Positions 9,411-64,000 of a DNA stretch of 64,000 nucleotides are shown piece by piece (the stretch's first letter is position 1; each line of letters begins with the position of its first letter). A program made the position numbers and the translations under genes. The notes below the pieces were generated by a model, which was not told the origin of the DNA, did no database searches, and saw only the letters and a program-made list of their open reading frames with translations. The DNA is from Flavobacteriales bacterium MED-G22. GTDB lineage: Bacteria > Bacteroidota > Bacteroidia > Flavobacteriales > Flavobacteriaceae. The stretch spans positions 1 through 64,000 of the forward strand of contig NTKF01000002.1 in the NCBI GenBank assembly GCA_002457295.1, given 5' to 3'.

Positions 9411-9466
9411 TGCACTAATAAAAACTAAAAATAAGCAATCTTTAATGGAAAGCGTGAGATATGGTT

Positions 9467-9474
9467 TATTTTTG
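9467..9474 (+). promoter_or_regulatory. -7 box of the ribF promoter
   Basis: TATTTTTG is a perfect TAnnTTTG match 29 nt before the ribF ATG. I see no clear TTG at the expected -33 distance, only a weak TTTAA near 9441. The divergent protease gene starts at 9410. Confidence 0.5.
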
Positions 9475-9503
9475 TTTTTATAATATGCGAGAGTAATTAG
9501 TTC

Positions 9504-12828: not shown

Positions 12829-14173
12829 AATAGATGCTGCGTTTTTCTCCTCCATCAAAGCACTTATCGAAACTACGCAGTCTAAAAAGCTAAAACTACG
12901 ACTTCAGAAGTTACATTATGCTGATATTGCTGAAATTCTAGAGCAGTTGTCCACTGATAACGCTATTTATCTCATCAAGCTCCTTGACAGTGACACTACA
13001 GCAGATGCCCTCGCAGAATTGGATGAAGATATTCGAGAGCGTATTTTAGAAAAATTATCGGTCAAAGAAATTGCAGAAGAAATTGCAGAATTAGATACTG
13101 ATGATGCCACTGACTTGATTTCAGAACTCCCTGTAGAAAGACAGCAAAAAGTGATTTTACAATTAGAAGATGATGATCACGCCCAAGACATTCGTGAACT
13201 ATTAACTTATGATGAAAATACAGCGGGTGGCCTTATGGCAAAGGAGTTGGTCAAAGTGCAAGAAAACCTCAGTGTACTTAAATGCCTTAATGAAATGAGA
13301 ACTCAAGCTGAAAATGTTACTCGAGTTCATTCTATTTATGTGGTGGACGAAAAAAACAGGCTCAAAGGAAGGCTGTCTCTCAAAGACTTAATAACTGCAA
13401 ATGCTAAAGCAAAAGTAAAAGACATCTATATCCCTAATGTGGATTATGTGACTGCAGAACAGGAAGGAGATGAAGTCGCAAAAATCATGTCTAAATATGA
13501 CTTGGAAGCTATTCCTGTAATTAACGCAAAAAAAGAGCTTTTGGGTCGCATTACTATTGATGATATAGTTGATTTAATCAAAGAAGAGGCTGAAAAAGAT
13601 TATCAGTTAGCCGCAGGTATTTCAAATGATGTTGAAGCCAATGATAGTATTTTTGAATTAACTCGGGCTCGATTACCTTGGTTATTTTTGGGACTTTTAG
13701 GCGGATTAGGAAGTGTTTTTATTTTACAGGGTTTTGAAAATGTGATGGAAAAACCTGAACTGCGTAACTTGTTTTTTTATACTCCTCTAATAGCAGCGAT
13801 GGCAGGAAATGTTGGAGTTCAATCTTCTGCAATCATTGTGCAAGGATTGGCCAACGACACCGTCAAAGGATCCTTGTTCTCAAGGTTGCTAAAAGAAGTT
13901 GGACTCAGTTTAATTAATGGACTGGCATTGGGAATCATACTCCTTCTTTTTGGACGCCTTATTGCACAAGAAATTGTAGTTAGCCTAACCATTGCAGGCT
14001 CTATGCTTTTAGTGATTATAGTAGCCGCACTTGTTGGCACTTTTGTCCCAATCATTTTAGACCGTAGAGGGATTGATCCTGCCATAGCAACAGGACCCTT
14101 TATCACAACCTGCAATGATATTTTTGGAATTTTTCTCTTTTTTTATATAGCAAAATTGGCTTTAGGATTTTGA
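12815..14173 (+). CDS. mgtE: magnesium transporter MgtE
   Basis: 452 residues from the ATG at 12815 (a GTG one codon earlier is possible). It is an inner-membrane Mg2+ channel gated by cytoplasmic Mg2+. Domains in order: acidic MgtE_N superhelical domain (about 10-130, with [23 protein letters not shown] repeats), a pair of CBS domains (about 135-255, [20 protein letters not shown] and [20 protein letters not shown]), then five membrane segments (about 280-452) with the conserved pore region [17 protein letters not shown]. It overlaps rsmA upstream and touches the dehydrogenase gene downstream by one base. Confidence 0.96.
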
Positions 14174-40415: not shown

Positions 40416-41126
40416 TTATTGGAGTTTGAAGGTAATTGGAATACTAAATGGAACTCGAACAGCTTTACCTCTTTGCTTGCCTGGTGTCATTTTGGGTAGT
40501 TTGGAAATGATGCGGTTTGCTTCATTTTCTAAATTTTTGTCTGGCCCACGCATTCTGATATTTGAAATGTTCCCATCCTTTCCAATAACAAAGTTTACAT
40601 ATACCCGCCCTTGAATTCCCATCTCTTGAGCAATTTCTGGATAACGGAAGTTTTTTCTAATATGTTTATTCATTTGTTCTTGGAAACAATCGCGTCTTTT
40701 AGATTTTTTCACTTTTTCACAACCAGGAAATATTGGAACATCTTCAATTACAGCAAAAGGGACATCAACATCATCATACTCTTCTTCAATCTCTACGTCT
40801 TCCACTTCTATTATTTCCTCCTCATCAGTTTCAGTAGATTCTATAACTGTTTCTTCAACATCCTCTTCGTCTTCAACTATTTCAATAACAACTGGAGCTG
40901 CTGGCGGTGGCGGTGGTGGTGGTGGTGTTTTGATTTGTTCTGTGATAGGGATTTCTTCATCCTCATCATTTTCTACATCTAAGGCCTCATAGTCATAGAG
41001 GCTTTTATCATACGATTTCCATTCTATGGCCTGCCAGGTGAGAAACAAGATTAGACACAAACCGATTACAAAATATAAACTTGAATTTTTTTTAAGGTCG
41101 ACTTTGGGGTTTTTTTTAGATTTCAT
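40416..41126 (-). CDS. energy transducer TonB (copy 1)
   Basis: 236 residues. One N-terminal membrane helix (SSLYFVIGLCLILFLTWQAI), then a periplasmic spacer with eight consecutive prolines (about 70) and a long acidic part rich in E, D and V. The C-terminal TonB domain (about 150-236) has HIRKNFRYPEIAQEMGIQGRVYVNF, KDGNISNIRMRG and VPFSIPITFKLQ. It transmits proton-motive force from ExbBD to outer-membrane receptors. A Cys pair (CEKV, DCFQE) lies just before the domain, as in other flavobacterial TonB. It is a tandem paralogue of the next gene. No exbBD is in the window. Confidence 0.93.
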   Translation of the reverse strand: MKSKKNPKVDLKKNSSLYFVIGLCLILFLTWQAIEWKSYDKSLYDYEALDVENDEDEEIPITEQIKTPPPPPPPPAAPVVIEIVEDEEDVEETVIESTETDEEEIIEVEDVEIEEEYDDVDVPFAVIEDVPIFPGCEKVKKSKRRDCFQEQMNKHIRKNFRYPEIAQEMGIQGRVYVNFVIGKDGNISNIRMRGPDKNLENEANRIISKLPKMTPGKQRGKAVRVPFSIPITFKLQ

Positions 41127-41237: not shown

Positions 41238-41948
41238 TTATTGCAACCTAAATGTGATAGGAATACTAAAAGGGACTCTCACAGGTCTTCCTCTTTGTTT
41301 TCCTGGGGTCATCTGTGGCAATTTTGAAATAATGCGTTGAGCCTCTTTTTCTAGGTTTTTGTCTGGACCACGCATTCTGATGTTTGTAATTGCTCCATCT
41401 TTACCAATAACGAAATTAACATAAACTCTCCCTTGGATGCCCATCTCCTGTGCAATTTCAGGATAGCGGAAATTTTTTCTGATATGTCTATTCATTCGCT
41501 CTTGGAAACAAGCGCGTCTTTCAGATTTTTTTACTTTTTCGCATCCAGGAAAAATTGGTACATCTTCGATCACTGCAAACGGCACATCAATATCTTCAAT
41601 TTCTTCTTCTATTTCAACCTCTTCCACCTCAATAATTTCTTCTTCATCAGTTTCAGTAGATTCGATTACTGTTTCTTCAACTTCTTCTTCATCTTCAACC
41701 ACTTCTATTACCTCTGGTGCAGGTGGCGGCGGGGGCGGCGGGGGTGGAGTTTTAATTTGTTCTGTGATAGGAATTTCCTCATCGTCTTCATCATCAACAT
41801 CTAAGGCTTCATAGCCGTATAGGCTTTTGTCATAGGTTTTCCACTCTATGGCTTGCCAAGTAATTAGTAATATGGCTGCAAGCCCAATGACAAAATAGAG
41901 ACTACTATTCTTGCTTAAATCTACTTTTGAATTTTTCTTGGGTTTCAT
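41238..41948 (-). CDS. energy transducer TonB (copy 2)
   Basis: 236 residues, the same length as copy 1 and nearly identical in most stretches. Differences concentrate in the membrane helix (GLAAILLITW), the acidic spacer and a few C-terminal positions (KDGAITNIRMRG, VPFSIPITFRLQ). It has nine prolines and keeps both pre-domain cysteines (CEKV, ACFQE). The tandem arrangement, separated by a terminator, points to a recent duplication with separate expression. Different outer-membrane receptors or ExbBD sets could be served; sequence does not say which. The gcvH gene lies upstream, about 190 nt away, without another gene between. Confidence 0.93.
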   Translation of the reverse strand: MKPKKNSKVDLSKNSSLYFVIGLAAILLITWQAIEWKTYDKSLYGYEALDVDDEDDEEIPITEQIKTPPPPPPPPPAPEVIEVVEDEEEVEETVIESTETDEEEIIEVEEVEIEEEIEDIDVPFAVIEDVPIFPGCEKVKKSERRACFQERMNRHIRKNFRYPEIAQEMGIQGRVYVNFVIGKDGAITNIRMRGPDKNLEKEAQRIISKLPQMTPGKQRGRPVRVPFSIPITFRLQ

Positions 41949-50013: not shown

Positions 50014-50595
50014 TTATAATTTATTCAAAGCAACCTTTATAAGCTCTTCAATTGAGCTGTTTGGATCACTTTGAATCGCGTTATCAATAACTTTTTCAGC
50101 TTGACGTCTGGGGTAACCCAATACCTCTAATGCTGATAACGCTTCTTCTTTGATTGTATTGTTTTTTAGTAGTGGTATTTGTTCACTTTCATAGAGCTGG
50201 AGCATCTTGTCTTTAAGCTCAATGAGAACCCTTTGTGCTGTTTTTAGTCCAATCCCTTTTATGCCTTTAATTGTAGCTAAATCTTCATTCACTATAGCCG
50301 CATGAATTTCTTGTGGGGCGAGTGAAGATAACATGGTTCTTGCAGTAGCTGCGCCAATGCCAGAAACACTGAGCAATAAACGAAAAATACTCCTTTCCAA
50401 AAGGCTGTGAAATCCAAATAATGTGTGTGCATCTTCTCTAATTTGAAGGTGTGTGTAAAGTTTTATTTTTTCTTCATCTTTAATTTGCGAAAAGGTGTGC
50501 AATGAAATATGTACTTCATAACCTATGCCATTGCAATCAATCACAAGAGTTGTTGGAGTTTTTTCGACCAGACGGCCAATGAGTTGAGTAATCAT
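50014..50595 (-). CDS. ruvA: Holliday junction branch migration protein RuvA
   Basis: 193 residues. It tetramerises on four-way junctions and directs RuvB. The N-terminal OB-fold ([29 protein letters not shown]) is followed by tandem helix-hairpin-helix motifs (LLLSVSGIGAATARTML and IKGIKGIGLKTAQRVLIELKDK) and the C-terminal RuvB-binding domain III (EALSALEVLGYPRRQAEKVID). ruvB is not in the window. The start overlaps the maeB stop by 4 nt and the stop is 3 nt before sprA, so ruvA sits in a maeB-ruvA-sprA transcript. Confidence 0.97.
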   Translation of the reverse strand: MITQLIGRLVEKTPTTLVIDCNGIGYEVHISLHTFSQIKDEEKIKLYTHLQIREDAHTLFGFHSLLERSIFRLLLSVSGIGAATARTMLSSLAPQEIHAAIVNEDLATIKGIKGIGLKTAQRVLIELKDKMLQLYESEQIPLLKNNTIKEEALSALEVLGYPRRQAEKVIDNAIQSDPNSSIEELIKVALNKL

Positions 50596-52874
50596 CCCTT
50601 TACATTTTGTTGTTTTGTCTGAGCATCAATTACAGCAACCGCAGACATATTCACAATTTCTTCTACTGAGGCTCCTAGTTGTAATATATGTATAGGCTCG
50701 CTCAAGCCCATTAGAATTGGACCAATAGACAGATTTTCATTTAGTTCTTTCATTAACTTGTAGGTGATATTTGCAGCATCAAGATTTGGAAAAATGAGTG
50801 TATTTACGTTCTTATTGGACAAGCCTGAAAAAGGAAAACGTTCCTCTAACAATTTCTTGTTAAAAGCAAAATCGGATTGTATAGGTCCGTCTACAATGAG
50901 TTCAGGGTTTGTTCTGTGAAGTAATTTGACTGCCTGCGATACTTTTTTAGCTTGAGGGAAGCGGGTAGATCCAAAATTGGAAAAAGAGAGCATACCTAAC
51001 ACTGGTTTAATACCAAACATAGCCACCGTTTTAGCTGTCATTTTTGCAATGGTAGCTAATTCTTTAGCGTTTGGTTCTACATTAATAGTGGTGTCTGACA
51101 GAAAGATAGGGCCCCTTTTTGTCAGCATTAAATTGGTGGCTGCTACTCGTCTTACTCCTTTGGCTCTTGGAATAATCTCTAAAATGGGTTTTACTACCGT
51201 TGGGTAATTTCTTGAATAACCCGAAATCATAGCATCTGCATCACCGTTTTGGACCATCATTGCTGCAAAATAATTTCTTTCACTCATCAGTCTTTCCGCA
51301 TCATAAAGAGTATACCCCTTTCGCTGCTGTGCTTTCCAAAATAATTTCGCATACTTTTCACGTAAGGGTTGATAAGAGTCATCTTTTGGGTCAATAATTT
51401 CAACCTTTGCCCCATAATCTAACTTGTTTTTTAAAGTTTCTATCATGGCTTTATTTCCGAGCAGTACGGGAGTTCCCATTTTTTCTTCTTGAACAATTTG
51501 AGCTGCTTTCAAAACGTCCAAACAATCTGCTTCAGCATAGACAATTTTTTTAGGTTTTGCTTTTGCTCTATCCTGCATTAGTCGGATCAATTTCTGGTCA
51601 CTGCCTAAAAGTGCTTCAAGGGACTCTTCATAGTTTTTCCAATTCTCTATGGGCTGGGTTGCAACTCCTGATTCCATTGCTGCTTTTGCAACTGCTGGAG
51701 GTATTTTAGTTATCAAACGAGGATCAAAAGGCTTTGGAATTATGTAGGCTTTGCCAAAACGTAGGCGCGTTTCATCATAGGCAACATTGACTTGCTCAGG
51801 AACAGGCTCCTTAGCTAATGCGGCTAGTGCTTTAACAGCAGCCATTTTCATTGCTTCATTGATCTTAGTGGCACGTACATCTAATGCCCCTCTAAAAATA
51901 AAAGGAAACCCTAAAACATTGTTTACCTGATTTGGGTAGTCTGATCGACCCGTGGCCATGATGACATCTTTTCTCGTCTCACAAGCCAACTGATAATCAA
52001 TTTCTGGATCTGGATTTGCCATGGCAAAAACAATAGGATTTTTTGCCATAGAGTTTAGCATCTCTACCGTTAAAAGCTTCGGTTTTGAAAGACCAATAAA
52101 GACATCTGCTCCCTTCACCGCATCACCTAGAGTATCTATTTTTTCTTGAGTAGCAAAAAACGCTTTTTCAGGGGTGAGGTGTTCTCTATCTGCACGAATA
52201 ACTCCCTTAGAATCTACCATTAGGATGTGTTTTTTGAGTACACCAAAGGCCATATATAATTTTGAACATGAAATTGCAGCAGCTCCAGCTCCAGAGACAA
52301 CAACTTTAAGCTCTTCCATTTTCTTTTGACTCAATTCAGCGGCATTTAAAAGCGCGGCGCAAGAAATGATGGCTGTTCCATGTTGGTCATCATGCATTAC
52401 TGGAATGTCCAACTCCTCTTTTAATCTTCTTTCAATTTCAAAGGCTTCTGGAGCCTTTATATCTTCTAGATTAATGCCGCCAAAAGTTGGAGAAATGGCT
52501 TTGATGGCCTGAATAAATTGTTCGGGGTCTTTGGCATCAACTTCTATATCAAAAACATCTATTCCAGCAAAAATTTTAAACAATAGAGCTTTTCCCTCCA
52601 TCACTGGTTTTGAGGCATTTGGACCAATATCTCCTAAGCCTAAAACAGCCGTCCCGTTTGAAATAACAGCAACTAAATTTCCTTTATTGGTATATTTATA
52701 AACCGAAGCTTTTTCTTTTTCTATTTCTAAACAAGGATGTGCAACGCCAGGAGAATAAGCCAAAGATAAATCTCTTTGAGTACGATAGTTTTTGGTAGGA
52801 ATGACTTCTGTTTTACCAGGTTTGGGTTTGGCATGATATACCAATGCGGACCTTCTATGTTGGTCTTTTTTCAT
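50592..52874 (-). CDS. maeB: NADP-dependent malic enzyme
   Basis: 760 residues, the long MaeB form. The N-terminal malic-enzyme domains (about 1-425) have [12 protein letters not shown], the NAD(P)-binding [17 protein letters not shown] and [10 protein letters not shown]. The C-terminal phosphotransacetylase-like domain (about 430-755) has [33 protein letters not shown] and [18 protein letters not shown]; in this family that domain is regulatory rather than catalytic. It decarboxylates malate to pyruvate with NADPH production. Its own promoter at 52890-52917 separates it from the haloperoxidase operon upstream on the same strand. Confidence 0.96.
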
Positions 52875-52942: not shown

Positions 52943-54295
52943 TTATATTTTAACTCGTAAAGAAAATAATCCTCCAAGAATTAGAAATAGCCCTGCTAGA
53001 CGAATTACGTTGATAGGGTTTTCACCCAGAACGCCATAAACAAAATACTGCATACTGACAATTTGGATGATCATTGGTATGACGATGAACATATTAAATA
53101 TGCCCATATAGACCCCTGTTTTTTCTGATGGAATAGAGGCTGCCAGCATTTGATAGGGCATCGCCATCATGCTAGCCCATGTGATACCCAGTCCAAAAGA
53201 AAACAAATATATTTGAGACACTGCAATGCCTGATCCAAAAGGATTTGGAATAGTAAAAAGTATAGTTGTGTCATCCAAAAATGGCATAGCAAGAAGTGCA
53301 GATCCACCTATTGCTAAACTTATGAAGTGAAGTTGTTTGGCACCAAATTTTCGTGCAATGGGTATCATGGCGAAAGCAATTAAAAAACAGATGATATTAT
53401 AGGTGCCATTCAAATTGCCAGTGAGCAATTGGGCTTGATTAAAATAAGTTGTTGATTGATCTAGCGTATTATAGAGAGAAAGAGACAATGCGGATGTGAG
53501 ATATTGCCAATAACAGAACATGGCATACCAAGGAAAAAACATAACAGGAATGAGTTGTTTCATGGTGAGTGGCATTTCCTTTATGGCTATTCCAATGTCT
53601 TTTAGTGTTCTAATAACAGGGTTCCCCAATTTTTTTGCTTCTTTAATTCTCTCTAATTCTTCTTGGGTTGGTGGATATTCTGAAGTAGTAAAAACAGTCA
53701 CTAAGATAGTCGCAATTGAGGCAAAGGCACCAATACCAAATGCCCAATAGGTTGAAACAGGAATGCCATTTTCCATTTTGTCACTTAAAGCTAAAATGCC
53801 AAAAGAAACTAATAGAGCGGGTGTAAAGTTTGCCATAGTGGTTCCTAGTCCAGTGAAGAAACTTTGCATGAGAAAGCCAATGGAGTGTTGTTTTTTATCT
53901 AATTTATCTGATATAAAAGCTCGATAGGGTTCTAAAGCAATATTGTTTGCAGCATCTAAAATCCAGAGAAGACTGGCGGCCATCCATATGGTACTAGAAT
54001 AGGGCATTGATACCAAAGCGATACTTGCTATGACAGCTCCAATAAGAAAAAAGGGCTTTCTTCTTCCAAATCTTACAGACCAAGTTCCATCACTAATAGC
54101 ACCAATAATGGGTTGCACTATTAGACCTGTAACTGGACCTGCTAACCACAACATTGGCAACTCAGATTCTTCAGCCCCAAGATATTTGTATATGGCACTC
54201 ATATTACTTTGCTGCAATCCAAAACTGAATTGAACACCAAAGAATCCAAAGTTCATAGTTAGAATTTGCCAGAAAGAAAGATGCTTTTTATTCAT
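52943..54295 (-). CDS. MFS transporter of the SLC45 (sugar:cation) type
   Basis: 450 residues, twelve probable membrane helices. The start MNKKHLSFWQILTMNFGFFGVQFSFGLQQSNMSAIY and the motif WSVRFGRRKPFFLIGA match the SLC45/sucrose- and maltose-transporter branch, as do AGPVTGLIVQPIIGAISDG and ANNIALEPYRAF. Such proteins import glycosides with protons. In this operon it is the last gene, 6 nt after the haloperoxidase-like gene, so its substrate is probably connected to the surface lipoproteins. I infer that from context alone. Confidence 0.9.
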   Translation of the reverse strand: MNKKHLSFWQILTMNFGFFGVQFSFGLQQSNMSAIYKYLGAEESELPMLWLAGPVTGLIVQPIIGAISDGTWSVRFGRRKPFFLIGAVIASIALVSMPYSSTIWMAASLLWILDAANNIALEPYRAFISDKLDKKQHSIGFLMQSFFTGLGTTMANFTPALLVSFGILALSDKMENGIPVSTYWAFGIGAFASIATILVTVFTTSEYPPTQEELERIKEAKKLGNPVIRTLKDIGIAIKEMPLTMKQLIPVMFFPWYAMFCYWQYLTSALSLSLYNTLDQSTTYFNQAQLLTGNLNGTYNIICFLIAFAMIPIARKFGAKQLHFISLAIGGSALLAMPFLDDTTILFTIPNPFGSGIAVSQIYLFSFGLGITWASMMAMPYQMLAASIPSEKTGVYMGIFNMFIVIPMIIQIVSMQYFVYGVLGENPINVIRLAGLFLILGGLFSLRVKI

Positions 54296-54301
54296 TCAGG
54301 G

Positions 54302-55651
54302 CTATTGGACGGCAACAGTTGTCGAACTATTTTTTTTCAATGTTTGAATATTTTCAACAATATAATCCCCTACGCGTTGTCCCTGGCGAACGCCTTCTTC
54401 AATAGCCATCATATAATGTATTCCTCCATAAAGTCTAGAAATGGCGGCTTCTTCTGAAGCTTGAATAAAGGTATTATAGCTTCTGTCTGGTAAACCATAG
54501 GCTGACTCTGTTGTATCAACAAAAGAAAAATTTGGTCCATAAACATCTGTCAATGCTAATGCGGCAGCTCTAGAAATTACTGAATGACCACTGGTATATT
54601 CTGGAAATGGTGGTGTTTGTAATAACGGAAGCCATTCCTCATCATAATAAGCATTTATCAATGTTTCAGGACGTACTACCAATGTTTTCCATTTTTCATC
54701 CCAACAACTAATGAAAGCATCAAAAAGGGCGATGGTCACATTGGCAAAAGCATTTACGGTTTCATCAAAACTACTATTTGCTGTTCGTGCCGCAATACCA
54801 GTGATGCCAATCCAATGGCCACCGGGGGTAATTTTTTTGGTAGCAAACATGGCGTGCCCTCGGTGATGGGTGACATAGGGGTTGCAATCCCAAAATTTTG
54901 CAATTTCTAATTGCTCATCGTTGAGGCCTTTACCTATTTCATATACTTCAAATAATTGTTTTTGAAAAGGGCTGCCCTCTTTGAGGTCAAATTTTAGGGG
55001 TGGTTTGGCTGGAAACTGGTTGGCCGAATCTAAAACCATCGTTCTAATTTCTTTCCAATGAGGTTCAATTCCATCCATATAGTCTGGAGGAGTGGGTTTC
55101 CAATATTCAGGAGGATCTAAAATAGTGTATTTAGGAAAGGTTCTAGTTTGGTTGTAGAGGTCTTTACTTGCCCACATCATAATGTGTTCTGCTACTTTTA
55201 TTCCAAACTTTTTAGAATTTGCCTTTAATGCTCTAGGAACTCCCATTTCCTTTAATTCCATTTCAAATGATTCTTGGAATTGAGCAATTTTATCTTCCGA
55301 AAAAATAAGTTCTTTCCCAACTGCATTGAAGGCATAAAGTGCTGCCATATGGGGACTTATATTTTCATCTTCTGTCTTTGGAATTGGAGGTAAATGTGCT
55401 ATTTGCCCACTTAATGAGTTGTATTTTTCTGGCATTGATTGGGCTAAAATCTCATAGGCAGCAATGGTGGGATAGAGATAGACCCTTGAAGCTACTGGAG
55501 GTGAAAAAATATCGTAGACTACAATATCTGAGAGGTTTTGTATTGCTTTTTGAAAAAGCTCAGGATTTTCTAATTGCTTTGGTTCAAAAGGAGGCCTGCA
55601 TCCTACGACAAATGCTACTAAGAAAAGGCCCTGTAAGATTTGCTTTTTCAT
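54302..55651 (-). CDS. vanadium-haloperoxidase / PAP2-fold lipoprotein
   Basis: 449 residues. The signal peptide ends in the lipobox VVGC (Cys18). The core has all three vanadate/phosphate-site arms: Lys320-x6-Arg327-Pro, SGH at 354-356 and Ser405-Arg406-x5-His412, in the context EYTSGHSVISRAAAL and ISRLYGGIHYMMA. These define the vanadium-dependent haloperoxidase/PAP2 superfamily. The length and helical layout fit the bacterial haloperoxidase-like group. Haloperoxidase and acid-phosphatase activities cannot be separated by sequence. It is the fifth gene of the operon visible here, 13 nt after the VCBS gene and 6 nt before the MFS gene. Confidence 0.9.
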   Translation of the reverse strand: MKKQILQGLFLVAFVVGCRPPFEPKQLENPELFQKAIQNLSDIVVYDIFSPPVASRVYLYPTIAAYEILAQSMPEKYNSLSGQIAHLPPIPKTEDENISPHMAALYAFNAVGKELIFSEDKIAQFQESFEMELKEMGVPRALKANSKKFGIKVAEHIMMWASKDLYNQTRTFPKYTILDPPEYWKPTPPDYMDGIEPHWKEIRTMVLDSANQFPAKPPLKFDLKEGSPFQKQLFEVYEIGKGLNDEQLEIAKFWDCNPYVTHHRGHAMFATKKITPGGHWIGITGIAARTANSSFDETVNAFANVTIALFDAFISCWDEKWKTLVVRPETLINAYYDEEWLPLLQTPPFPEYTSGHSVISRAAALALTDVYGPNFSFVDTTESAYGLPDRSYNTFIQASEEAAISRLYGGIHYMMAIEEGVRQGQRVGDYIVENIQTLKKNSSTTVAVQ

Positions 55652-55664
55652 AAGCGCTGGAGTT

Positions 55665-58600
55665 TTATTCTTTTTTCTTTAATAAATAGGAATTGTCATT
55701 ATTGGTTATAACAACAAAATCGTCATTATCTAATTGTACAATTTTTTTTGCAATGGTACCCAAAGGTAAGGGAAACCGTTGGTAACTTGCAAAATTTTGA
55801 ATGGTTGAATCATAAAAGTTAAACAAACCTCCTGCATTGGCTAAAGAAGGACCTAGTTCAGCTACATTGTTATTATTGTTTCCTACAAAGGCAAGTGTAC
55901 CTGTTGTAGCATTAAAACTAAAATCTTCAATACTACTCTTCTGTGCCTCATTTGGGAGGGGTTTGGCTTCAAATGATGTTCCTCCTTGGTTTAGAAAAAT
56001 CATAGAACGCAATTCCACCAAGCGTTTTGTTTGAAGAATATTGGATGGTTTTCTATCTACTAACGTTTCGATGCTATTTACCTTAGCAAAATCATTGTAA
56101 GAAGTAAATCTTTTTTTGATGCCTGGTAGTTGAGATGACAGCTTATCTTTTGAAGCAAAGGGTATGGTTGTTTTTCCATATTCATAAAAAATAATTGGGT
56201 CTGCTTGCTTATTGTTGTCAAAATCATCCAAATATAGAACTATAGGCTTTTCAAGACTTGCATCCCACTTTAAATTTGATCCTGCATTACCCGCAACAAT
56301 ATCTAAAAACCCGTCCTTATTGAAGTCTTCCACGAGAACGGTATTCCATAGCCCCTGTGTAGCTGCCAAACCGTATGCTGCTGTCTGATTTTCGAAGGCT
56401 TTACCTTCTTGATTGATTAAAATGGTTATGGGCATCCAGTCTCCCACTAAAATTAAATCTAAATAATCATCTTGGTTTAGATCTATCCATTGGGCATCTG
56501 TTATCATTCCCCATTGCTTTCGGTCTAACATTTTCATGGCCCTACCCGCTTCATTTTGAACAATAAAACTTTTTGGTGTTAATCCATAAGCGCCCGTAAT
56601 ACTTCTGCTGCCTATAAAATAGTCTGGGTTTTGATCGTTATCAAAATCAGCAATAGCCACACAGCCTGTGTTGGTTTGTGGCAATGAAATAGGCGCTCTT
56701 TTAAAAATTCCTTTTCCATCGTTGACATAGATACGATCTTCATAAGCTGGGTTGGGAGATATTACTTCATTTCCACCACTTCCAACATATAAGTCTAGAT
56801 CTCCATCTTTGTCAATATCAATACTAGCCACCGTAACATCTTCAAAGCCTCTATCGCGATCAAAATCTGGAATAAATTGATTTTTAAATGTTCCTTGCTT
56901 TGTTCCTAATAAAATTTGGGCGGGTTGTTGGCTTGCACCTCCAATAAAAAAATCTTTTATCTCATCTTGATTAAAATCAGCATAAAGAACTGCAGGACCT
57001 TCTCTAGACAATCGTTCTGGGACTAGTTGTTCTTTTTCTTCGTCATAGTAATTATTTTCTATGTGCTTGAAAGGAAAAAGATCAAGTTCAAATTGTTCGT
57101 TTACCACTTTTTCTTGAAAACGAGAGGGTTTTTGAACTGATGGATTTATGACGATCAACCGATCATCAAATTGTTTTAGCCATTGTTCAGTTCCGTTTGG
57201 CCAAAGAACTTTTAATGAATCTAATAAACCTTGAGGGGGAAGCGCAAAATGAATTTTAGAACTTGATGCAGATTGAAAACCTCTGACGGTTTGATGTTCT
57301 TTTATTGTGGTATACGCATTAGTGTAAAAAAACAATTTTGTTCCTACCACGTTAGGACAGTTTTCATTTGGCTTTAAGACAAAAGTGAAACTTTGATTTC
57401 CCTCTTTTTTATTTTCTAAAATTTGAGCAGGTGTGTCTATATTGTTTAGAATCAAGTCCAAGTCGCCATCATTATCTAGATCGCTGTAGGCTGCCCCTGT
57501 GGTATAGCCAGGAGTACCAATGGCAGATTTTTCAATGCTTTCAAAACCAAGTTTTCCTTTGTTATGAATTAAAAGATTTGGAATCTCAAGGGTAGGCATT
57601 TCGTTGATGATTTTTTTTCTGATTTTGTCTTTTTTAGTTTGCTCAAACTGGCTATAATTTGTGTTACTTAAGTAGTTGATATAATCTAAATCGTTTGGCC
57701 TTTTTACAATCCCATTAGGCACAAAAATGTCATTCCACCCATCGTTGTCAAAATCAGCTAGAAGCACACCCCAACTCCAGTCTGTAGCAAAGGTTTTTGT
57801 TTGAAGTGCTAGATCAGAAAAAGTTGTATCGCCATTGTTGATTTGTAAATGATTTCTCGCAAACTGAGGTCTAAACCCATACCGCTCTTTAATCCTTATG
57901 ACCTGATCTGTATCTTCCCCTCCCGATTTTAAAAGAATTTCTGCAGCAAAGGGAAGCATGTCTGTAGTAAAAAAATCAAGGAATCCATCGTTATTCATGT
58001 CGGCTATATCAATTCCCATAGTGAACCTAGAAGTATGGCTGGTATAAAACTCAATAGATTCGGTGAATGTTTTATTACCATTATTGATGTAGAGATAGTC
58101 GTTTTCATGAAAATCATTACCTACATAAATATCGGGCAAACCGTCCATATTAAAATCTGAAATCCCAACAGCCAAGCCATAACCCAATGCACTGCTGTAA
58201 ATTCCTGAAGATTCAGTGACCTCTTCAAAAGTGCCTGACTCATTCATCTTATTTTCATAGAATCGATCGCCAGCAAGTGTATTTGGAATTTTCCGTGCTT
58301 TTGTATTTCCATAACTTCTGACTGAATGAATATTATGATTCAATAAATAAAGATCTAAATCTCCATCTTGGTCATAGTCTAAAAAGGCGGCCTGCGTTGA
58401 AAAGCCTGAAAAATCTAAATTAACTTCTGAAGCAGCTTCTGTAAAAGTCAAATCGCCGTTGTTTAAATAGAGTTCATTATGAGATTGTAACTCATTAAAC
58501 TGTCCTACTTTGCATACATAAATATCTATATAGCCATCGTTGTTAACATCTTGCATGCTCACTCCCGTGGACCAAGAGGGTTTTTGATTCAAACCAGCAG

Positions 58601-58919
58601 CAGTTGATATGTCTTTAAATTGCATATTCCCCAGGTTGAGATAAAGTTTATCGGGGAGTTGATTGGCGGCAAAATAAATGTCGTCTAGGCCATCATTATT
58701 GATGTCTCCTACACTCACTCCACCTCCATTGTAGTAATAGAGATATTCAATGATATTTAGTGAAGAGGTGTCTGTCAGTTTATTTTCGAAAGTTATCCCA
58801 GTTTTTTTTGAGGATAAAACTTCCATCTTGAAAGTAGTGTTTTGCAGAGGTTCAACAGGTGCATTGATACACCCAATAATGGCAATACATAGAAGAATTA
58901 TACTTTTTCTAGCTATCAT
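55665..58919 (-). CDS. VCBS/FG-GAP repeat lipoprotein with ASPIC/UnbV domain (copy 1)
   Basis: 1,084 residues. A lipobox is present (IIGC, Cys17). Numerous FG-GAP/VCBS blades follow, each with a DxDxDG-type calcium loop (for example GDINNDGLDDIYFAAN, YDQDGDLDLYLLN, FNMDGLPDIYVGNDF, DIDKDGDLDLYVGSGG). Between two propellers an ASPIC/UnbV-type segment is visible at about 535-600, ending LKVLWPNGTEQW. The protein therefore looks like two beta-propellers joined by that domain, surface-exposed. Such CRTAC1-like proteins have no established function. The start overlaps the upstream paralogue's stop (ATGA). Confidence 0.9.
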   Translation of the reverse strand: MIARKSIILLCIAIIGCINAPVEPLQNTTFKMEVLSSKKTGITFENKLTDTSSLNIIEYLYYYNGGGVSVGDINNDGLDDIYFAANQLPDKLYLNLGNMQFKDISTAAGLNQKPSWSTGVSMQDVNNDGYIDIYVCKVGQFNELQSHNELYLNNGDLTFTEAASEVNLDFSGFSTQAAFLDYDQDGDLDLYLLNHNIHSVRSYGNTKARKIPNTLAGDRFYENKMNESGTFEEVTESSGIYSSALGYGLAVGISDFNMDGLPDIYVGNDFHENDYLYINNGNKTFTESIEFYTSHTSRFTMGIDIADMNNDGFLDFFTTDMLPFAAEILLKSGGEDTDQVIRIKERYGFRPQFARNHLQINNGDTTFSDLALQTKTFATDWSWGVLLADFDNDGWNDIFVPNGIVKRPNDLDYINYLSNTNYSQFEQTKKDKIRKKIINEMPTLEIPNLLIHNKGKLGFESIEKSAIGTPGYTTGAAYSDLDNDGDLDLILNNIDTPAQILENKKEGNQSFTFVLKPNENCPNVVGTKLFFYTNAYTTIKEHQTVRGFQSASSSKIHFALPPQGLLDSLKVLWPNGTEQWLKQFDDRLIVINPSVQKPSRFQEKVVNEQFELDLFPFKHIENNYYDEEKEQLVPERLSREGPAVLYADFNQDEIKDFFIGGASQQPAQILLGTKQGTFKNQFIPDFDRDRGFEDVTVASIDIDKDGDLDLYVGSGGNEVISPNPAYEDRIYVNDGKGIFKRAPISLPQTNTGCVAIADFDNDQNPDYFIGSRSITGAYGLTPKSFIVQNEAGRAMKMLDRKQWGMITDAQWIDLNQDDYLDLILVGDWMPITILINQEGKAFENQTAAYGLAATQGLWNTVLVEDFNKDGFLDIVAGNAGSNLKWDASLEKPIVLYLDDFDNNKQADPIIFYEYGKTTIPFASKDKLSSQLPGIKKRFTSYNDFAKVNSIETLVDRKPSNILQTKRLVELRSMIFLNQGGTSFEAKPLPNEAQKSSIEDFSFNATTGTLAFVGNNNNNVAELGPSLANAGGLFNFYDSTIQNFASYQRFPLPLGTIAKKIVQLDNDDFVVITNNDNSYLLKKKE

Positions 58920-61900
58920 TCTTGTGGTTTTAAAATAGCCACACTTTCGTTGGATCGAAAGACATAAATGGAATTATCAACTATTTTGATATCTCTCACT
59001 TCTCCACGGACAAAAAAGTCTTGTGTGTTGTTTGTTATCATTAACTCTCCATCAATATTCTCTAAATAAATGCCATGGCTAGCATCATAGATACCGACTT
59101 CAGGTTTCACACGATATAAGTTACCACCCATAACAATATCAGCATCTCCGTCTGAATCAAAATCTCCATGAGCAATAGCATAGATTGGACTGAGTTGTGC
59201 TTCAAGAGGTAAAGGTTTAGCCAAGAAATTGAAATTACCTTGGTTTATAAACAGAGTTGTTGCAAGTGTATTGACTTTGAGCACTTCCATTCCTTCTTGC
59301 TCTTGGGGTGTGAAAATTTGATTGAAATCCGCATTTTTAAATGTCTGATAATTAGGGAATTTCTTTTTGAGGCTTTTCACTTGATCTATCAATGTATGTC
59401 TAAGGGCATAGGGCATATCACGTTTTTCCTTATTGGTAAAGGTTAAAATACCTTCAACAGATCCGTTTCGATCAAAATCGTTGAGATATAATTTAATCGG
59501 TTGAGAGGGAGTTGCTTTAAATCGAGAATTTAAACCATGGTTTCCAGCCAAAATATCTAGGTCACCGTCATTGTCAACATCAAACAAATGTAAGGTATTC
59601 CACCACCCCTTGAAGGAGGATAGCGCATGGTTTTTTAGGGGAGAAAATTGACCGTTGTTATTTTCGAAAATTTCAATTCCCATAAATTCTCCTGTAACCA
59701 TCAAATCTTCATCACCGTCTTGATCCAAATCATAAAAATGAGCATCTGTAAACATTCCAAACGATTGCAAGAAAGGAGCTCTTTTGATGGTTTCATTTTC
59801 AAAATTTCCAAATCCGTTATTCATTAATATATAACCAGATCCCGCTTGCCCATAATGTCCTGTAACAATTCGTTCTCCAACAAAAAGATCCAGATTGCCA
59901 TCATTATCAATATCGGCTGCTCTAACACAACCTGTGCTAATGGGTGCCTCAGAGGCAGGAAACTTTTGAGGAGACATTGAAAAGTTTCCTTTTCCATCAT
60001 TGAAAAATAAACGATCATAGAGGTAATCGGAATAGGGGCTCATTTCAATACTTCCTGAAGCCAAATAGAGATCTAAATCTCCGTCTTGATCTGCGTCAAA
60101 AAGCAGGCTCTCTGTATGCTCTGCTCGAGCAATTTTATTTATGTCTTTTTGTAAAAGTGGAAGCATTCCTTCTTTTGAATTCAGATATACTCTTGAGGGT
60201 TGATTTTTTGGTCCTGGTATTATTATATCTTCTCTACCGTCGCCATTGATGTCTCCTTGAGCTACCTCTGGTCCTTCATTGCTGCACATATGATACATTA
60301 GGCGTTCTCTATGGAAATCGACAAAATTTGCTTCTTCATGAGTGTAGATTAGTGGAGTATCCTCTACAGGCACAAACAAACTAGGGTTTTTAGTTGGAGT
60401 TTCTTTTTTCACTTTGACTACTCTCTGCTCATTTATAATGAACCGTTGGTTGGCTGCAATGTTTTTGAGAAGAGTTTGTTTGCCAAGAGGCCATTTAATT
60501 ATTAAGTCAACTTGTGTGGCTTCCGCTAAACCGACATGAATGAGCGGGTCAACGCTTGATTGAAATCCTCTCGCAGGTTGCTGCTCAAAATAAAGAGTAT
60601 CCTTAGAAGTGACTACTTTTATTTTAGTTCCTAAAGCAAAAGTATTTTTTCCTGAACCCTCTAATTGAATTTGGAGGTGATTATGAGATTCTTTTTGTTG
60701 ATTCTCATAAACAAAGGCTTCCATGTTTACGTTGTTAACGACAAGATCTAAATCTCCATCATTATCTAAATCTGTATACACAGATCCATTAGAGAAACTG
60801 GGGGTGTTTAGTCCTAGATTTTTTGCTGCTTCAAACTGAGTGTTTCCTTTATTTATGAAAGCTTGATTAGGTACTTTTTCCGAAGGGATAATATCAATCA
60901 ATTTTTCAAAATTAACTTTGTTTTCCTCCATCAATGCGTTGACAACCTCTTCATTAGAGATATACTGCAGATAATCTTGATCTGTAAGATCTTTATAAAT
61001 ACCATTAGATACAAAGAGGTCTTTTAGTCCGTCATTGTTCATGTCAAAAAATAGAGCTCCCCAACTCCAATCAGTAGCTTCTACTCCGGCAAAACGCCCC
61101 ACTTCACTAAAAGTGCCATTGGCATTATTACGATGCAGCATATTGCGTGTAAATTGGTGATGGTAGCCATTTTTAACGTTGTATTGGTAGCGGTTCCAAT
61201 CTTCAAAAGTGGTTACAGATTTGAGTCGCTGGTAGTCAACAGGAAGCATTTCTGTTACAAAAATATCATTGTCCCCATCATTATCAATATCGGCCATGTC
61301 TGCCCCCATTGATGCTCCACTAATCGATTTGATTTGTTCGGTCAATACTTCTTTAAAACTGCCGTTTTGCTGATTGATATAAAGGTAGTCACGCTCAAAA
61401 AAATCATTTGAAATAAAAATATCTTCCCAATCATCATTATTAACATCTCCTACAGTAACTCCAAGACCAAAACCAATAACACTTCCATAGATTCCTGCTT
61501 GCTCACTAACATCTATAAATTTACCGTTTTCATTGCGCATTAATTTATCACCCCCTAGACGATCTCTTTTAGGGCGCTCATTTCTCCTTAAATCAAAACT
61601 ACCAATGGCCTGATAAGAGTTATTGAGTAAATAGACATCTAAATCACCATCTTTATCGTAATCAAAAAATACTGCATGAGTTGAAAAGCCTTTATCGTCC
61701 AAACCGTATACTGAAGCTTCTTCTGTAAAGGTTCCGTCTTGGTTATTAATAAATAATTCATTTTGTTTATTGTCTCCAGCAACATCTCCAGAATTGCAAA
61801 CATATATATCTAACCATCCGTCAGCATTAATATCAACCATAGTTACACCTGTTGACCAAGCTTTTGTTCCTGCCACATGGGCATCATTTGTAACCCTTTG

Positions 61901-62209
61901 AAACTTAAAATCACCTTTATTTAGGTAGAGTTCATTGGGCTTCTGATTGGCTGTAAAATAAAGATCAACCAAACCATCATTATTCACGTCGCCCACGGCG
62001 ATTCCTCCCCCATTGTAAAAGTTACGATACTTATAAACATTAAAATCATCTGTATAGCTAAGCTCGTTAGAGAAAGTTATACCTGTTTTAGAACTTGGAT
62101 GAAGTTTAAATTGTGTTTCTTCTTTTGGAGTTCCACAACCCCAAAAAAAGAGCATTCCTATAAATATATTATAGAAAAATATAAACTGCTTCGCCTTAAT
62201 TGGATTCAT
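58916..62209 (-). CDS. VCBS/FG-GAP repeat lipoprotein with ASPIC/UnbV domain (copy 2)
   Basis: 1,097 residues, with the same layout as copy 1. The lipobox is FWGC (near residue 25). Calcium-loop blades include GDVNNDGLVDLYFTAN, DINADGWLDIYVCNSGD, YDKDGDLDVYLLNN, DIDNDGDNDIFVTEM and DADQDGDLDLYLASGS. An ASPIC/UnbV segment lies at about 545-610 (LIHVGLAEATQVDLIIKWPLG). Sequence identity with copy 1 is clear in loops but low between them, so the duplication is old. It overlaps the upstream lipoprotein gene by 14 nt and copy 1 by 4 nt. Confidence 0.9.
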   Translation of the reverse strand: MNPIKAKQFIFFYNIFIGMLFFWGCGTPKEETQFKLHPSSKTGITFSNELSYTDDFNVYKYRNFYNGGGIAVGDVNNDGLVDLYFTANQKPNELYLNKGDFKFQRVTNDAHVAGTKAWSTGVTMVDINADGWLDIYVCNSGDVAGDNKQNELFINNQDGTFTEEASVYGLDDKGFSTHAVFFDYDKDGDLDVYLLNNSYQAIGSFDLRRNERPKRDRLGGDKLMRNENGKFIDVSEQAGIYGSVIGFGLGVTVGDVNNDDWEDIFISNDFFERDYLYINQQNGSFKEVLTEQIKSISGASMGADMADIDNDGDNDIFVTEMLPVDYQRLKSVTTFEDWNRYQYNVKNGYHHQFTRNMLHRNNANGTFSEVGRFAGVEATDWSWGALFFDMNNDGLKDLFVSNGIYKDLTDQDYLQYISNEEVVNALMEENKVNFEKLIDIIPSEKVPNQAFINKGNTQFEAAKNLGLNTPSFSNGSVYTDLDNDGDLDLVVNNVNMEAFVYENQQKESHNHLQIQLEGSGKNTFALGTKIKVVTSKDTLYFEQQPARGFQSSVDPLIHVGLAEATQVDLIIKWPLGKQTLLKNIAANQRFIINEQRVVKVKKETPTKNPSLFVPVEDTPLIYTHEEANFVDFHRERLMYHMCSNEGPEVAQGDINGDGREDIIIPGPKNQPSRVYLNSKEGMLPLLQKDINKIARAEHTESLLFDADQDGDLDLYLASGSIEMSPYSDYLYDRLFFNDGKGNFSMSPQKFPASEAPISTGCVRAADIDNDGNLDLFVGERIVTGHYGQAGSGYILMNNGFGNFENETIKRAPFLQSFGMFTDAHFYDLDQDGDEDLMVTGEFMGIEIFENNNGQFSPLKNHALSSFKGWWNTLHLFDVDNDGDLDILAGNHGLNSRFKATPSQPIKLYLNDFDRNGSVEGILTFTNKEKRDMPYALRHTLIDQVKSLKKKFPNYQTFKNADFNQIFTPQEQEGMEVLKVNTLATTLFINQGNFNFLAKPLPLEAQLSPIYAIAHGDFDSDGDADIVMGGNLYRVKPEVGIYDASHGIYLENIDGELMITNNTQDFFVRGEVRDIKIVDNSIYVFRSNESVAILKPQE

Positions 62210-62771
62210 CTAAATCATCAATTTTAACTATGATATCTTGTGTATTTTCTACATAAGCTCTAAACCGTCGGTCGCCATCAACTTTTACATAGATTGAAGG
62301 AATAGTATCATTTTTTAATTCATATTTAACAAATTCATTTCCACCATACCACCTTTGTATTGAATCAAGTACCCTGGGTAATAATTGTGATGCATGGTAG
62401 TCTTCATTCCAAGGAACCCAAAGCACATGAGAAAATATAACCTTCATATTATTGAGTTTTCTTTCTTTATTAAAACCACCAGTATATTCCATAGCAAAGT
62501 CATTTTGTTTTTCAGGTGTTTTAGGATCTTGAAAAACATACTTCATAAAAGTATACGACCTTCCTTGTACAACTATTTTATTGTGATTTAAATCCCAACT
62601 CTTTTCGTGGTAAGAATCTTTTGATTCCCCTAATCTATAATTAAAGAAAAGAGAATCTTCTTTTACATTTTTCTTTAACTCGCGATCTACCATTTTTTCA
62701 TACTCTGATTTACAACCTAAAATTGTCAGAGAGAAATGAAGTAATGATATTAAAACCCAAAATTGTTTCAT
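62196..62771 (-). CDS. lipoprotein of unknown function within the VCBS operon
   Basis: 191 residues. A lipobox ILGC (Cys20) follows a hydrophobic signal. The mature part has KMVDRELKKNVKEDSLFFNYRLGESKDSYHEKSWDLNHNK, which resembles lipoproteins of flavobacteria that are otherwise unassigned, then NDFAMEYTGGFNKERKLNNMKVIF and WNEDYHASQLLPRVLDSIQRWYGG. No known domain is recognised. It lies 12 nt after the partial VCBS gene and overlaps the next VCBS gene by 14 nt, so it belongs to the same functional set. A partner or periplasmic-chaperone role is possible but unproven. Confidence 0.75.
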   Translation of the reverse strand: MKQFWVLISLLHFSLTILGCKSEYEKMVDRELKKNVKEDSLFFNYRLGESKDSYHEKSWDLNHNKIVVQGRSYTFMKYVFQDPKTPEKQNDFAMEYTGGFNKERKLNNMKVIFSHVLWVPWNEDYHASQLLPRVLDSIQRWYGGNEFVKYELKNDTIPSIYVKVDGDRRFRAYVENTQDIIVKIDDLDESN

Positions 62772-62783
62772 GCTAAATTAACT

Positions 62784-64000
62784 TTAAGGCTCTAGTTTTA
62801 TTAGATTTAATGCACTATTGTTAAGACCTATTAGCAGTTTTTTTTGAGATTCCAAATTTACAACTTCCAATTGTCTTATTTGACCTTTGACAGCTAAACT
62901 TTCAGGCTGTTCCCATTGCCATTTTGAGGATTCATTTTGATAGTCTAGTTGCCAACCATGAGAGGCATCATATTGACCAAATTGAGGTTTTACTAAAAAC
63001 TGATTGCCTCCAAAAAAGAGGCTTCCCTTTCCCCTTTTTTCTGCTGCTAGATGATCTATTGCGAAGACTGGTGCATATTGTATTTCAAGAGGTAATTCAA
63101 TTTTTTCAAACCCAGAATTCTTGCCCACAAAAAGTGTGGTTTCTAGTGTTTGTAGTTCTGTAACCTCACTGTCTGATAATTGTGCTTCAGCAAATAGATC
63201 TGGCATTGAAGCCGCTGCATAATTTTCATATTTAAGAGCTCGCTTTTTTAAATAGGGTAATTGAGCAATTAGTTCATCCTTGTCAGCTATGGGGTAGTCT
63301 TTTCCATCATTTTGAAAAGTGATAATGGGTTCAAAACTACCGTTTTTATCAAAATCATTTAGAAATAATTTTGTTCCTGGGCTAAAGAAGGTATTAATCC
63401 CCATATTCCCAGCAATCAGATCTGGCCTCCCGTCAAAATTGAAATCTTCAACGAAGAGACTATTCCATAATCCCGTTGTTGACTCTAAACCATATTCTTT
63501 TGTGCGGTTCACAAAAGTGCCAGATTCATTTATCCAAATACTTATTGGCATCCACTCTCCAACAGCTACCAAATCTAACCAGCCATCTTTATTAAAATCA
63601 ACTGAAGAAAGATGAGTAATTAACCCAACTTTTTCAAATGAAGGCTGTTGGTTTAAAATAAAGTTTCCGAGTCCATCATTGATCAAAAGATGTAGGTTTC
63701 CTTTTTTACCATAAACAGACAAATCAAATCGTTCTCCAATAATAATGTCTTTAAAACCATCTTTATTAAAATCACCTATGGTGACCCCCCCAGTTGAAAA
63801 ATGAGAATCAAATGGTAGAGATGAACTCTTCTTTAAAAAATGTTTCTCTCCAATATTTTCATAATACCGATCATCCAAAAGGGCAGAAAACCTTGAAAAG
63901 GCTCTCCCTCCACTCCCGACAAATAAATCCAAATCTCCGTCACCATCGCCATCAAAAAACTCAGCCACTACATCTTCTGAACCTTTGTCATTTTGAAAAG
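62784..64000 (-). CDS. VCBS/FG-GAP repeat protein, C-terminal part (runs off the right edge)
   Basis: The frame is open to the last base, where it reads FQNDKGSEDVVAEFFDGDGDGDLD, so the apparent start at 63968 is only an internal Val (GTG); the gene begins outside the window. About 405 residues are visible, aligned with the second propeller of the two downstream paralogues: GDGDGDLDLFVGSGGRAFSRF, GDFNKDGFKDIIIGERFD, VDFNKDGWLDLVAVGEWMP, EDFNFDGRPDLIAGNMGIN. The C-terminus ends in the same VKGQIRQLEVVNL-type strand as copy 2. A lipoprotein signal and an ASPIC/UnbV domain are expected upstream of 64000 but cannot be seen. Confidence 0.88.
   Translation of the reverse strand, partial: FQNDKGSEDVVAEFFDGDGDGDLDLFVGSGGRAFSRFSALLDDRYYENIGEKHFLKKSSSLPFDSHFSTGGVTIGDFNKDGFKDIIIGERFDLSVYGKKGNLHLLINDGLGNFILNQQPSFEKVGLITHLSSVDFNKDGWLDLVAVGEWMPISIWINESGTFVNRTKEYGLESTTGLWNSLFVEDFNFDGRPDLIAGNMGINTFFSPGTKLFLNDFDKNGSFEPIITFQNDGKDYPIADKDELIAQLPYLKKRALKYENYAAASMPDLFAEAQLSDSEVTELQTLETTLFVGKNSGFEKIELPLEIQYAPVFAIDHLAAEKRGKGSLFFGGNQFLVKPQFGQYDASHGWQLDYQNESSKWQWEQPESLAVKGQIRQLEVVNLESQKKLLIGLNNSALNLIKLEP

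Follow-up and report, generated by a model that had tools for sequence, protein, structure and literature searches.

An operon of VCBS/UnbV lipoproteins, a zgVIPO1-type vanadium peroxidase, and an SLC45-like transporter, possibly the 3' part of a SusCD-type uptake locus

We analyzed a stretch of 64,000 nucleotides (nt) from Flavobacteriales bacterium MED-G22 (contig NTKF01000002.1, positions 1 to 64,000), hereafter "the window". At its end, six genes, all on the minus strand (52943–63998), form a real operon that combines three VCBS/FG-GAP proteins, an orphan lipoprotein (LIP), a vanadium-peroxidase-type enzyme, and an SLC45-like transporter. These genes, and the malic enzyme gene that follows them, are:

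52943–54295, minus strand: SLC45/GPH-type MFS symporter, the last gene of the operon, 450 amino acids (aa), assigned from Pfam, NCBIfam, and PDB matches
54302–55651, minus strand: predicted zgVIPO1-type vanadium-dependent haloperoxidase with a lipoprotein-type N-terminus, 449 aa, assigned from its match to PDB 4CIT and its lipobox VVGC
55665–58919, minus strand: VCBS_A, a VCBS/FG-GAP and UnbV_ASPIC lipoprotein, 1084 aa, 11 calcium-type loops by pattern
58916–62209, minus strand: VCBS_B, a VCBS/FG-GAP and UnbV_ASPIC lipoprotein, 1097 aa, 12 calcium-type loops by pattern
62196–62771, minus strand: LIP, an orphan lipoprotein, 191 aa, no Pfam or NCBIfam family
62784–63998, minus strand: VCBS_C, a third VCBS/FG-GAP protein, cut by the window edge, with only the C-terminal ~404 residues present
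50592–52874, minus strand: maeB-like malic enzyme, named by sight, 68 nt downstream of the operon

Transcription runs from VCBS_C through LIP, VCBS_B, VCBS_A, and the peroxidase to SLC45, with gaps of 12, −14, −4, 13, and 6 nt. The initial annotation, made from the sequence letters, had described six tightly packed genes with overlaps and gaps of at most 13 nt, and this description holds (same strand, gaps from −14 to +13 nt). It had also counted four clear lipoboxes: three of them match the pattern (VVGC, IIGC, and ILGC), whereas the fourth (FWGC, Cys25) falls outside it, with Cys25 invariant across 17 of 17 aligned sequences, the window's included. The truncated VCBS gene was also suspected to encode a lipoprotein; a lipoprotein-like Cys is present in the four homologues with a readable N-terminus (L089–L092; L numbers denote loci and G numbers genomes). 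Promoter-like sites (40 in the operon vs 38.1 in shuffled sequence) and terminator-like sites (10 vs 7.6) occur at shuffle level, and thus decide nothing. Since a maeB-like gene also adjoins the operon counterparts in many Flavobacteriaceae relatives, we regard it as chromosomal setting outside the system.

The peroxidase is by far most similar to PDB chains 4CIT and 4USZ, which are annotated as vanadium-dependent haloperoxidase, the latter being named as a Zobellia iodoperoxidase in PMC5064120: the match reaches 496.6 bits over residues 3–439, while the next PDB chain scores only 16 bits. Identity to 4CIT amounts to 224 of 434 aligned positions (52%). We take 4CIT to be zgVIPO1, an enzyme with iodoperoxidase activity. 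When the window protein was aligned with 4CIT and 121 relatives, residues K320, R327, S354, G355, H356, R406, and H412 agreed with 4CIT; W317, K320, R327, F349, G355, H356, and R406 were invariant (121/121 relatives), H412 was present in 120 (the exception being a gap), and S354 in 117. The vanadate-site residues proposed in the initial annotation (Lys320, Arg327, His356, Arg406, and His412) are therefore correctly placed and kept in 120–121 of the 121 relatives. Furthermore, Y259, W317, and F349 occupy the alignment columns of zgVIPO1 Tyr263, Trp321, and Phe353, which we take to be its halide-pocket residues; Y259 is found in 95 relatives and otherwise replaced by Phe (25) or Gly (1). The PAP2 Pfam match is barely above the cut-off (27.4 vs 27.2 bits). 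Judged from these comparisons, the window enzyme is a zgVIPO1-type vanadium peroxidase, although peroxidase rather than phosphatase activity is beyond proof from sequence alone. Between halogenation and dephosphorylation, both entertained initially, the former is favored by its nearest relative (496 vs 16 bits), while the sequence is still compatible with the latter.

Additional peroxidases were observed near some family members: L192, L195, L188, and L201 carry a second, divergent copy of 513–552 aa, with 26–31% identity, adjoined by a 310–319-aa gene that has no Pfam or PDB match in the L195 example. Of four neighbor families at L195 (187, 312, 313, and 364 aa), none was matched in Pfam, and PDB likewise gave nothing for those of 312, 313, and 364 aa.

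The operon's visible part contains no SusC/SusD pair, as initially noted; the accompanying suggestion that it may represent an alternative to SusC/SusD uptake is not supported by comparison with relatives. For this comparison, the block was defined as the five genes VCBS-LIP-VCBS-VCBS-peroxidase, and the region upstream of it was readable in ten relatives, i.e., six of seven extended loci (L088–L093) and four loci from the phylum sample described below (L147–L150). A SusC/SusD pair lies upstream of the block in nine of these ten (by Pfam in L088–L092 and by BLAST in L147–L150, with the L147 SusC split over two frames), and in the tenth, L093, BLAST shows a SusD with 73% identity to its L088 counterpart before the contig ends. 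The seventh extended locus, L094, from the closest fetched relative (L001/G001), stops inside the same VCBS gene, so that the case for upstream SusCD is carried by the other relatives. One relative, L092, has an additional 229-aa open reading frame (ORF) between SusD and VCBS. The upstream region also revealed a divergent LacI gene beside SusCD in four of the relatives (by Pfam in L088, L091, and L092, by BLAST in L147); none was found in the fetched stretches of L148–L150, and L089 and L090 have sigma/FecR-type genes in its place (Pfam on the L089 pair). Because block-bearing relatives have the pair upstream, its absence from the window is most likely an edge effect, and by this comparison a SusC/SusD pair probably lies just off the window edge.

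To evaluate conservation, 288 peroxidase relatives were retrieved from public genome contigs and the best 80, chosen by peroxidase similarity, were kept. The exact five-gene block occurs in 17 of these 80 loci, and LIP lies no more than five genes upstream of the peroxidase in 19. A fraction of the relatives thus keeps the genes together, so that the lack of joint conservation named in the initial annotation as a refutation does not apply. The gene following the peroxidase is SLC45 in 34/80 and maeB in 18/80. In many Flavobacteriaceae the block precedes maeB-ruvA-sprA, and in L052, L060, L066, L070, L072, and L074 it has other neighbors; its presence in differing surroundings indicates more than shared chromosome order. 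We also searched a phylum sample of 296 evenly drawn Bacteroidota genomes, with G003, a known carrier of the locus, chosen as its center. The peroxidase was detected in 59 of these genomes (98 places, E-value 1e-20), LIP in 22, and both in 8, and an arrangement like that of the window in 5, the chosen center G003 included. Of the 97 peroxidase places besides that of the center, 44, largely those with the highest scores, were fetched with their surroundings, and 43 were retained since the peroxidase of L168 was lost to the ORF filter. Neighbor genes were largely labelled via BLAST to a few Pfam-tested references. A VCBS gene lies within three same-strand genes upstream of the peroxidase in 42 of the 80 close relatives; for the phylum-sample loci the count is 30 of 43.

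Two loci titled Rhodobacteraceae and Rickettsiales (L024 and L069) are of Bacteroidota type, and are probably mis-binned metagenome contigs. A distinct peroxidase setting was seen in L026, L030, L045, and L053, with DUF1501, NHL-repeat, and Planctomycete-cytochrome/DUF2231 genes upstream, and a TonB-dependent receptor and a 444-aa protein downstream (Pfam on L026, the others by size match).

Both full-length VCBS proteins, VCBS_A and VCBS_B, contain FG-GAP repeats and a UnbV_ASPIC domain, and VCBS_C aligns with the C-terminal ~400 residues of homologues that are ~1,085 aa long. A structural model of VCBS_B (17 alignment rows; mean predicted local distance difference test score (pLDDT) 77, predicted template-modelling (TM) score 0.73) has mouse CRTAC1 (PDB 9etn) as its best structural match (Foldseek E-value 1.3e-24, TM-score 0.66 on the target); the second strand-rich half of the model, which also bears FG-GAP loops, is likely another propeller. 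The LIP model is confident (pLDDT 89.8). Its fold search returned no clear match, with middling rows for YjgB, DcrB, and SciW/EagT6, and such matches (of the DUF4309/YjgB, DcrB, and SciW/EagT6 kind) may reflect a common arrangement only; its profile, run against PDB sequences, gave one chance-like row (E-value 0.19).

In the phylum sample, 14 of the 22 LIP genomes had no peroxidase gene found at E-value 1e-20, and most of the fetched LIP stretches had VCBS neighbors. Of the 21 fetched LIP stretches, the ORF script called LIP in 19 and missed it in L153 and L156, although the search finds LIP there. The occurrence of LIP next to VCBS genes without a peroxidase indicates that LIP belongs with the VCBS proteins, and we rejected a role as a peroxidase partner on the basis of these 14 genomes. 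The FG-GAP/UnbV lipoproteins and LIP form a module that is seen with SusCD and also without the peroxidase. We likewise rejected a single inherited block: on a FastTree phylogeny of 123 rows, support values aside, LIP changed 11 times, SLC45 20 times, and VCBS context 23 times, a patchy pattern. Peroxidase-free VCBS-LIP-VCBS-VCBS modules in L151, L152, L158, and L160 adjoin a common ~815-aa gene, and L021 has a further LIP-like gene, shortened to 127 aa, between SLC45 and maeB (13320–13703).

The phylum sample also includes a peroxidase 98.4% identical to 4CIT (L176, genome G189), an identity that makes G189 probably a Zobellia. Here, U301, a GyrI-like gene, follows a VCBS-VCBS-VCBS-peroxidase operon, and a gene for a sodium:solute symporter is encoded divergently to the first of the VCBS genes. 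GH2, SusD, SusC, and LacI genes come ~6 to 16 kb further on, separated by unrelated genes. LIP was not found in G189 in the phylum-sample LIP search. U301, whose product looks membrane-anchored, and LIP occurred together in none of 60 stretches (11 with U301, L174–L180 and L182–L185; 19 with LIP called, L147–L152, L154, L155, L157–L166, and L206), and the two might be alternatives to each other.

Clues to the substrate come from the transporter and from enzymes encoded near peroxidases. The SLC45-like protein matches MFS_1 (1.9e-19) and MFS_2 (2e-8) in Pfam, and plant SUC1 (8bb6; 6.8e-18, 68 bits) and SLC45A4 (9giu; 9.2e-9) in PDB. Co-location was evaluated across all 59 peroxidase genomes, with expected counts assuming uniform placement and ignoring kinship (G149, G225, and G264 look alike). 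Kojibiose hydrolase was found in 16 places, 10 of them ≤3 kb from a peroxidase (0.06 expected) and 13 ≤15 kb (0.24 expected); trehalase in 27 places, with 3 (0.11) and 9 (0.39) at these distances; and SLC45 (any match, E-value 1e-50) in 58, with 7 (0.2) and 10 (0.75). Kojibiose hydrolase scored above its cut-off in 24 of the 296 genomes, 16 of these among the 59 with a peroxidase. At individual loci, L184 carries a kojibiose hydrolase (1109 vs a cut-off of 800), trehalase genes neighbor the peroxidase in L071 and L052 (Pfam) and in L175 and others (BLAST label), and L018 has a sucrose phosphorylase between the peroxidase and an SLC45 gene (472.6, cut-off 334.4), while that of L175, a locus which also includes a pfkB sugar kinase, falls slightly under this cut-off (330.4). 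Sucrose phosphorylase became less convincing as a general partner: of its 4 places, in 4 of the 59 genomes, none combines proximity to a peroxidase with a score above the cut-off. Taken together, these co-locations are a strong clue to alpha-glucosides for the peroxidase family, if no rule, and an indirect one for the window.

Based on this gene context, we give about even chances to the operon being the 3' portion of an uptake locus of the SusCD type that would serve small alpha-glucosides and include an extracytoplasmic peroxidase. In such a system, the SusC/SusD pair expected off the edge, the three calcium-loop propeller lipoproteins, and LIP would serve in the surface capture of a small alpha-glucoside, possibly of the sucrose, trehalose, kojibiose, or glucosylglycerol kind, e.g., phytoplankton osmolytes, and the SLC45/GPH symporter would carry it intact through the inner membrane. 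The lipoprotein peroxidase, presumably outside the cytoplasm, would use peroxide and iodide or bromide and act on this ligand, or alternatively may protect against oxidants in the vicinity of the source cell. The initial annotation had put forward that one substrate is captured, processed, and imported; this is consistent with the gene context of the relatives, with a small alpha-glucoside as the presumed substrate.

A number of observations weigh against this alpha-glucoside uptake reading. Among the six window genes, Pfam and NCBIfam searches gave no glycosidase or lyase, with the upstream part beyond the edge unseen, and none of the six is a source of peroxide. No VCBS gene lies within three genes upstream of the peroxidase in 38/80 close relatives and 13/43 phylum loci, and L147–L150 have the block with no SLC45 in the stretch. 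The transporter matches the TIGR01301 sucrose/proton symporter model at 3.4e-29, yet its 102 bits do not reach the cut-off of 511. G003, the only near genome with the block that was searched whole, has no trehalase or kojibiose hydrolase at the thresholds used; the peroxidases linked to kojibiose hydrolase are more distant ones, and the near relatives of the window have SLC45 instead. In the 59 genomes, the three sucrose phosphorylase places ~4 kb from a peroxidase are below the cut-off, and the sole one above it lies ~157 kb away. Other peroxidase neighbors are diverse, including sulfatase/rhamnosidase, alpha-L-fucosidase, GH13 amylase, GH116-like, and DUF1501/cytochrome genes.

Three further explanations have to be weighed. 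The operon may instead be a halogen system, the core job of which would be iodide or bromide oxidation for uptake, defense, or detoxification of algal oxidants, with the sugar genes feeding it peroxide or reductant. This is a tentative possibility, in line with the matching active site and the 52% identity to a characterized haloperoxidase. The Zobellia iodoperoxidase vIPO3 was reported to be upregulated with Ascophyllum nodosum compared to alginate (PMC9296495). Iodide uptake in Arenibacter C-21, a marine Flavobacteriaceae, requires glucose, oxygen, and calcium, and at least five 4USZ homologues are present in this strain (PMC5064120), both of which also speak for a halogen system. However, no oxidase-, iodide-transporter-, or dehalogenase-like gene is present among the six, and several components, namely SusCD, SLC45, and the LacI regulators found in relatives, are of a sugar-related type. 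A further reading, which we regard as a long shot, is a sugar-fuelled halogen reactor at the cell surface, in which a SusCD/calcium-propeller complex would import alpha-glucosides, their oxidation would yield peroxide at the surface, and the peroxidase would make reactive iodine for uptake or as a weapon. If true, this would provide the genetic basis for the need of C-21 for glucose, oxygen, and calcium in iodine accumulation (PMC5064120).

It is rather unlikely that the PAP2-fold enzyme acts as a phosphatase or phosphotransferase, removing the phosphate of a sugar phosphate or glycolipid head group and leaving the free glucoside to be imported by SLC45. Phosphatase and haloperoxidase activities use the same active-site residues. 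Those common to both are kept here, the protein belongs to the same superfamily (PAP2 Pfam), and such an activity would account for the tie to glycosidases; the nearest characterized relative is nevertheless a haloperoxidase, and Trp317 and Phe349, at the columns we presume to be halide-pocket positions, are invariant in 121/121 relatives. Finally, the SusCD-VCBS-LIP module and the peroxidase-SLC45 pair may be mere neighbors with different substrates. The 14 of 22 LIP genomes in which no peroxidase gene was found (E-value 1e-20) fit such a split, as do peroxidase-SLC45 pairs without adjoining VCBS genes (L006, L009, and L010), halves on opposite strands (L041 and L049), and the block without SLC45 (L147–L150). 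We consider it improbable in view of the overlapping window genes, with a largest gap of 13 nt, and of an order kept in 17/80 loci across several chromosomal settings.

Four of the protein families involved (peroxidase, VCBS/UnbV, SusCD, and SLC45) are already known, while LIP has no name in Pfam or NCBIfam. To our knowledge, no natural role has been settled for vanadium iodoperoxidases of bacteria. This analysis places their family, including a 98%-identical copy of the founding member, in SusCD/VCBS-type loci; the above-chance ties to kojibiose hydrolase (an alpha-1,2-glucosidase), trehalase, and SLC45 provide concrete candidate substrates, and would link marine halogen chemistry with small-sugar uptake. 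No description of a peroxidase-VCBS-SusCD locus appeared in the excerpts of the literature searched, although the founding zgVIPO1 paper may describe its neighborhood, and the tie to kojibiose hydrolase, trehalase, and SLC45 was equally undescribed there. Neither the locus type nor the sugar-enzyme tie appears in the sections consulted of PMC8490876, PMC8537180, PMC8626586, PMC12188728, and PMC10643221.

Elsewhere in the window, tandem 236-aa genes (40416–41126 and 41238–41948, minus strand) share 203 of 236 residues, and their proline-rich middle and C-terminal part by sight resemble TonB energy transducers; a reprolysin-like metallopeptidase of 1317 aa with a P-domain is encoded at 5583–9536 (minus strand).

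Compared to known systems, the peroxidase resembles zgVIPO1 of Zobellia galactanivorans (4CIT/4USZ) in its 52% identity, its catalytic and pocket residues, and its lipoprotein-type N-terminus. The locus of the zgVIPO1 ortholog in G189 likewise has the peroxidase gene after three VCBS genes, as with the VCBS genes of the window, but differs in that U301 rather than SLC45 follows the peroxidase and that SusD/SusC are found at a distance of ~11 to 15 kb, beyond unrelated genes. VCBS_B shares FG-GAP repeats plus a UnbV domain with cartilage acidic protein 1 (CRTAC1, 9etn), from which it is distinguished by an extra FG-GAP-bearing half and a lipoprotein-type Cys. The transporter is homologous to plant SUC1 along most of its length, the FGRRKPF stretch included, but only distantly related to the sugar:proton symporters of plants (SUC) and animals (SLC45) (68 bits to SUC1; 102 bits for TIGR01301, cut-off 511). 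Kojibiose hydrolase (GH65, NF053734), although not among the six window genes, the neighbor labels of window-like loci, or genome G003, has the tightest tie to the peroxidase family among the four enzyme and transporter families evaluated. Unlike SusC/SusD polysaccharide utilization loci, the window has FG-GAP/UnbV lipoproteins and a peroxidase, with no glycoside hydrolase or lyase in its six genes; it resembles such loci in the SusCD and LacI regulator of its relatives, its lipoproteins, and its sugar-type transporter, and glycan-degrading enzymes do occur at the peroxidase loci of some relatives.

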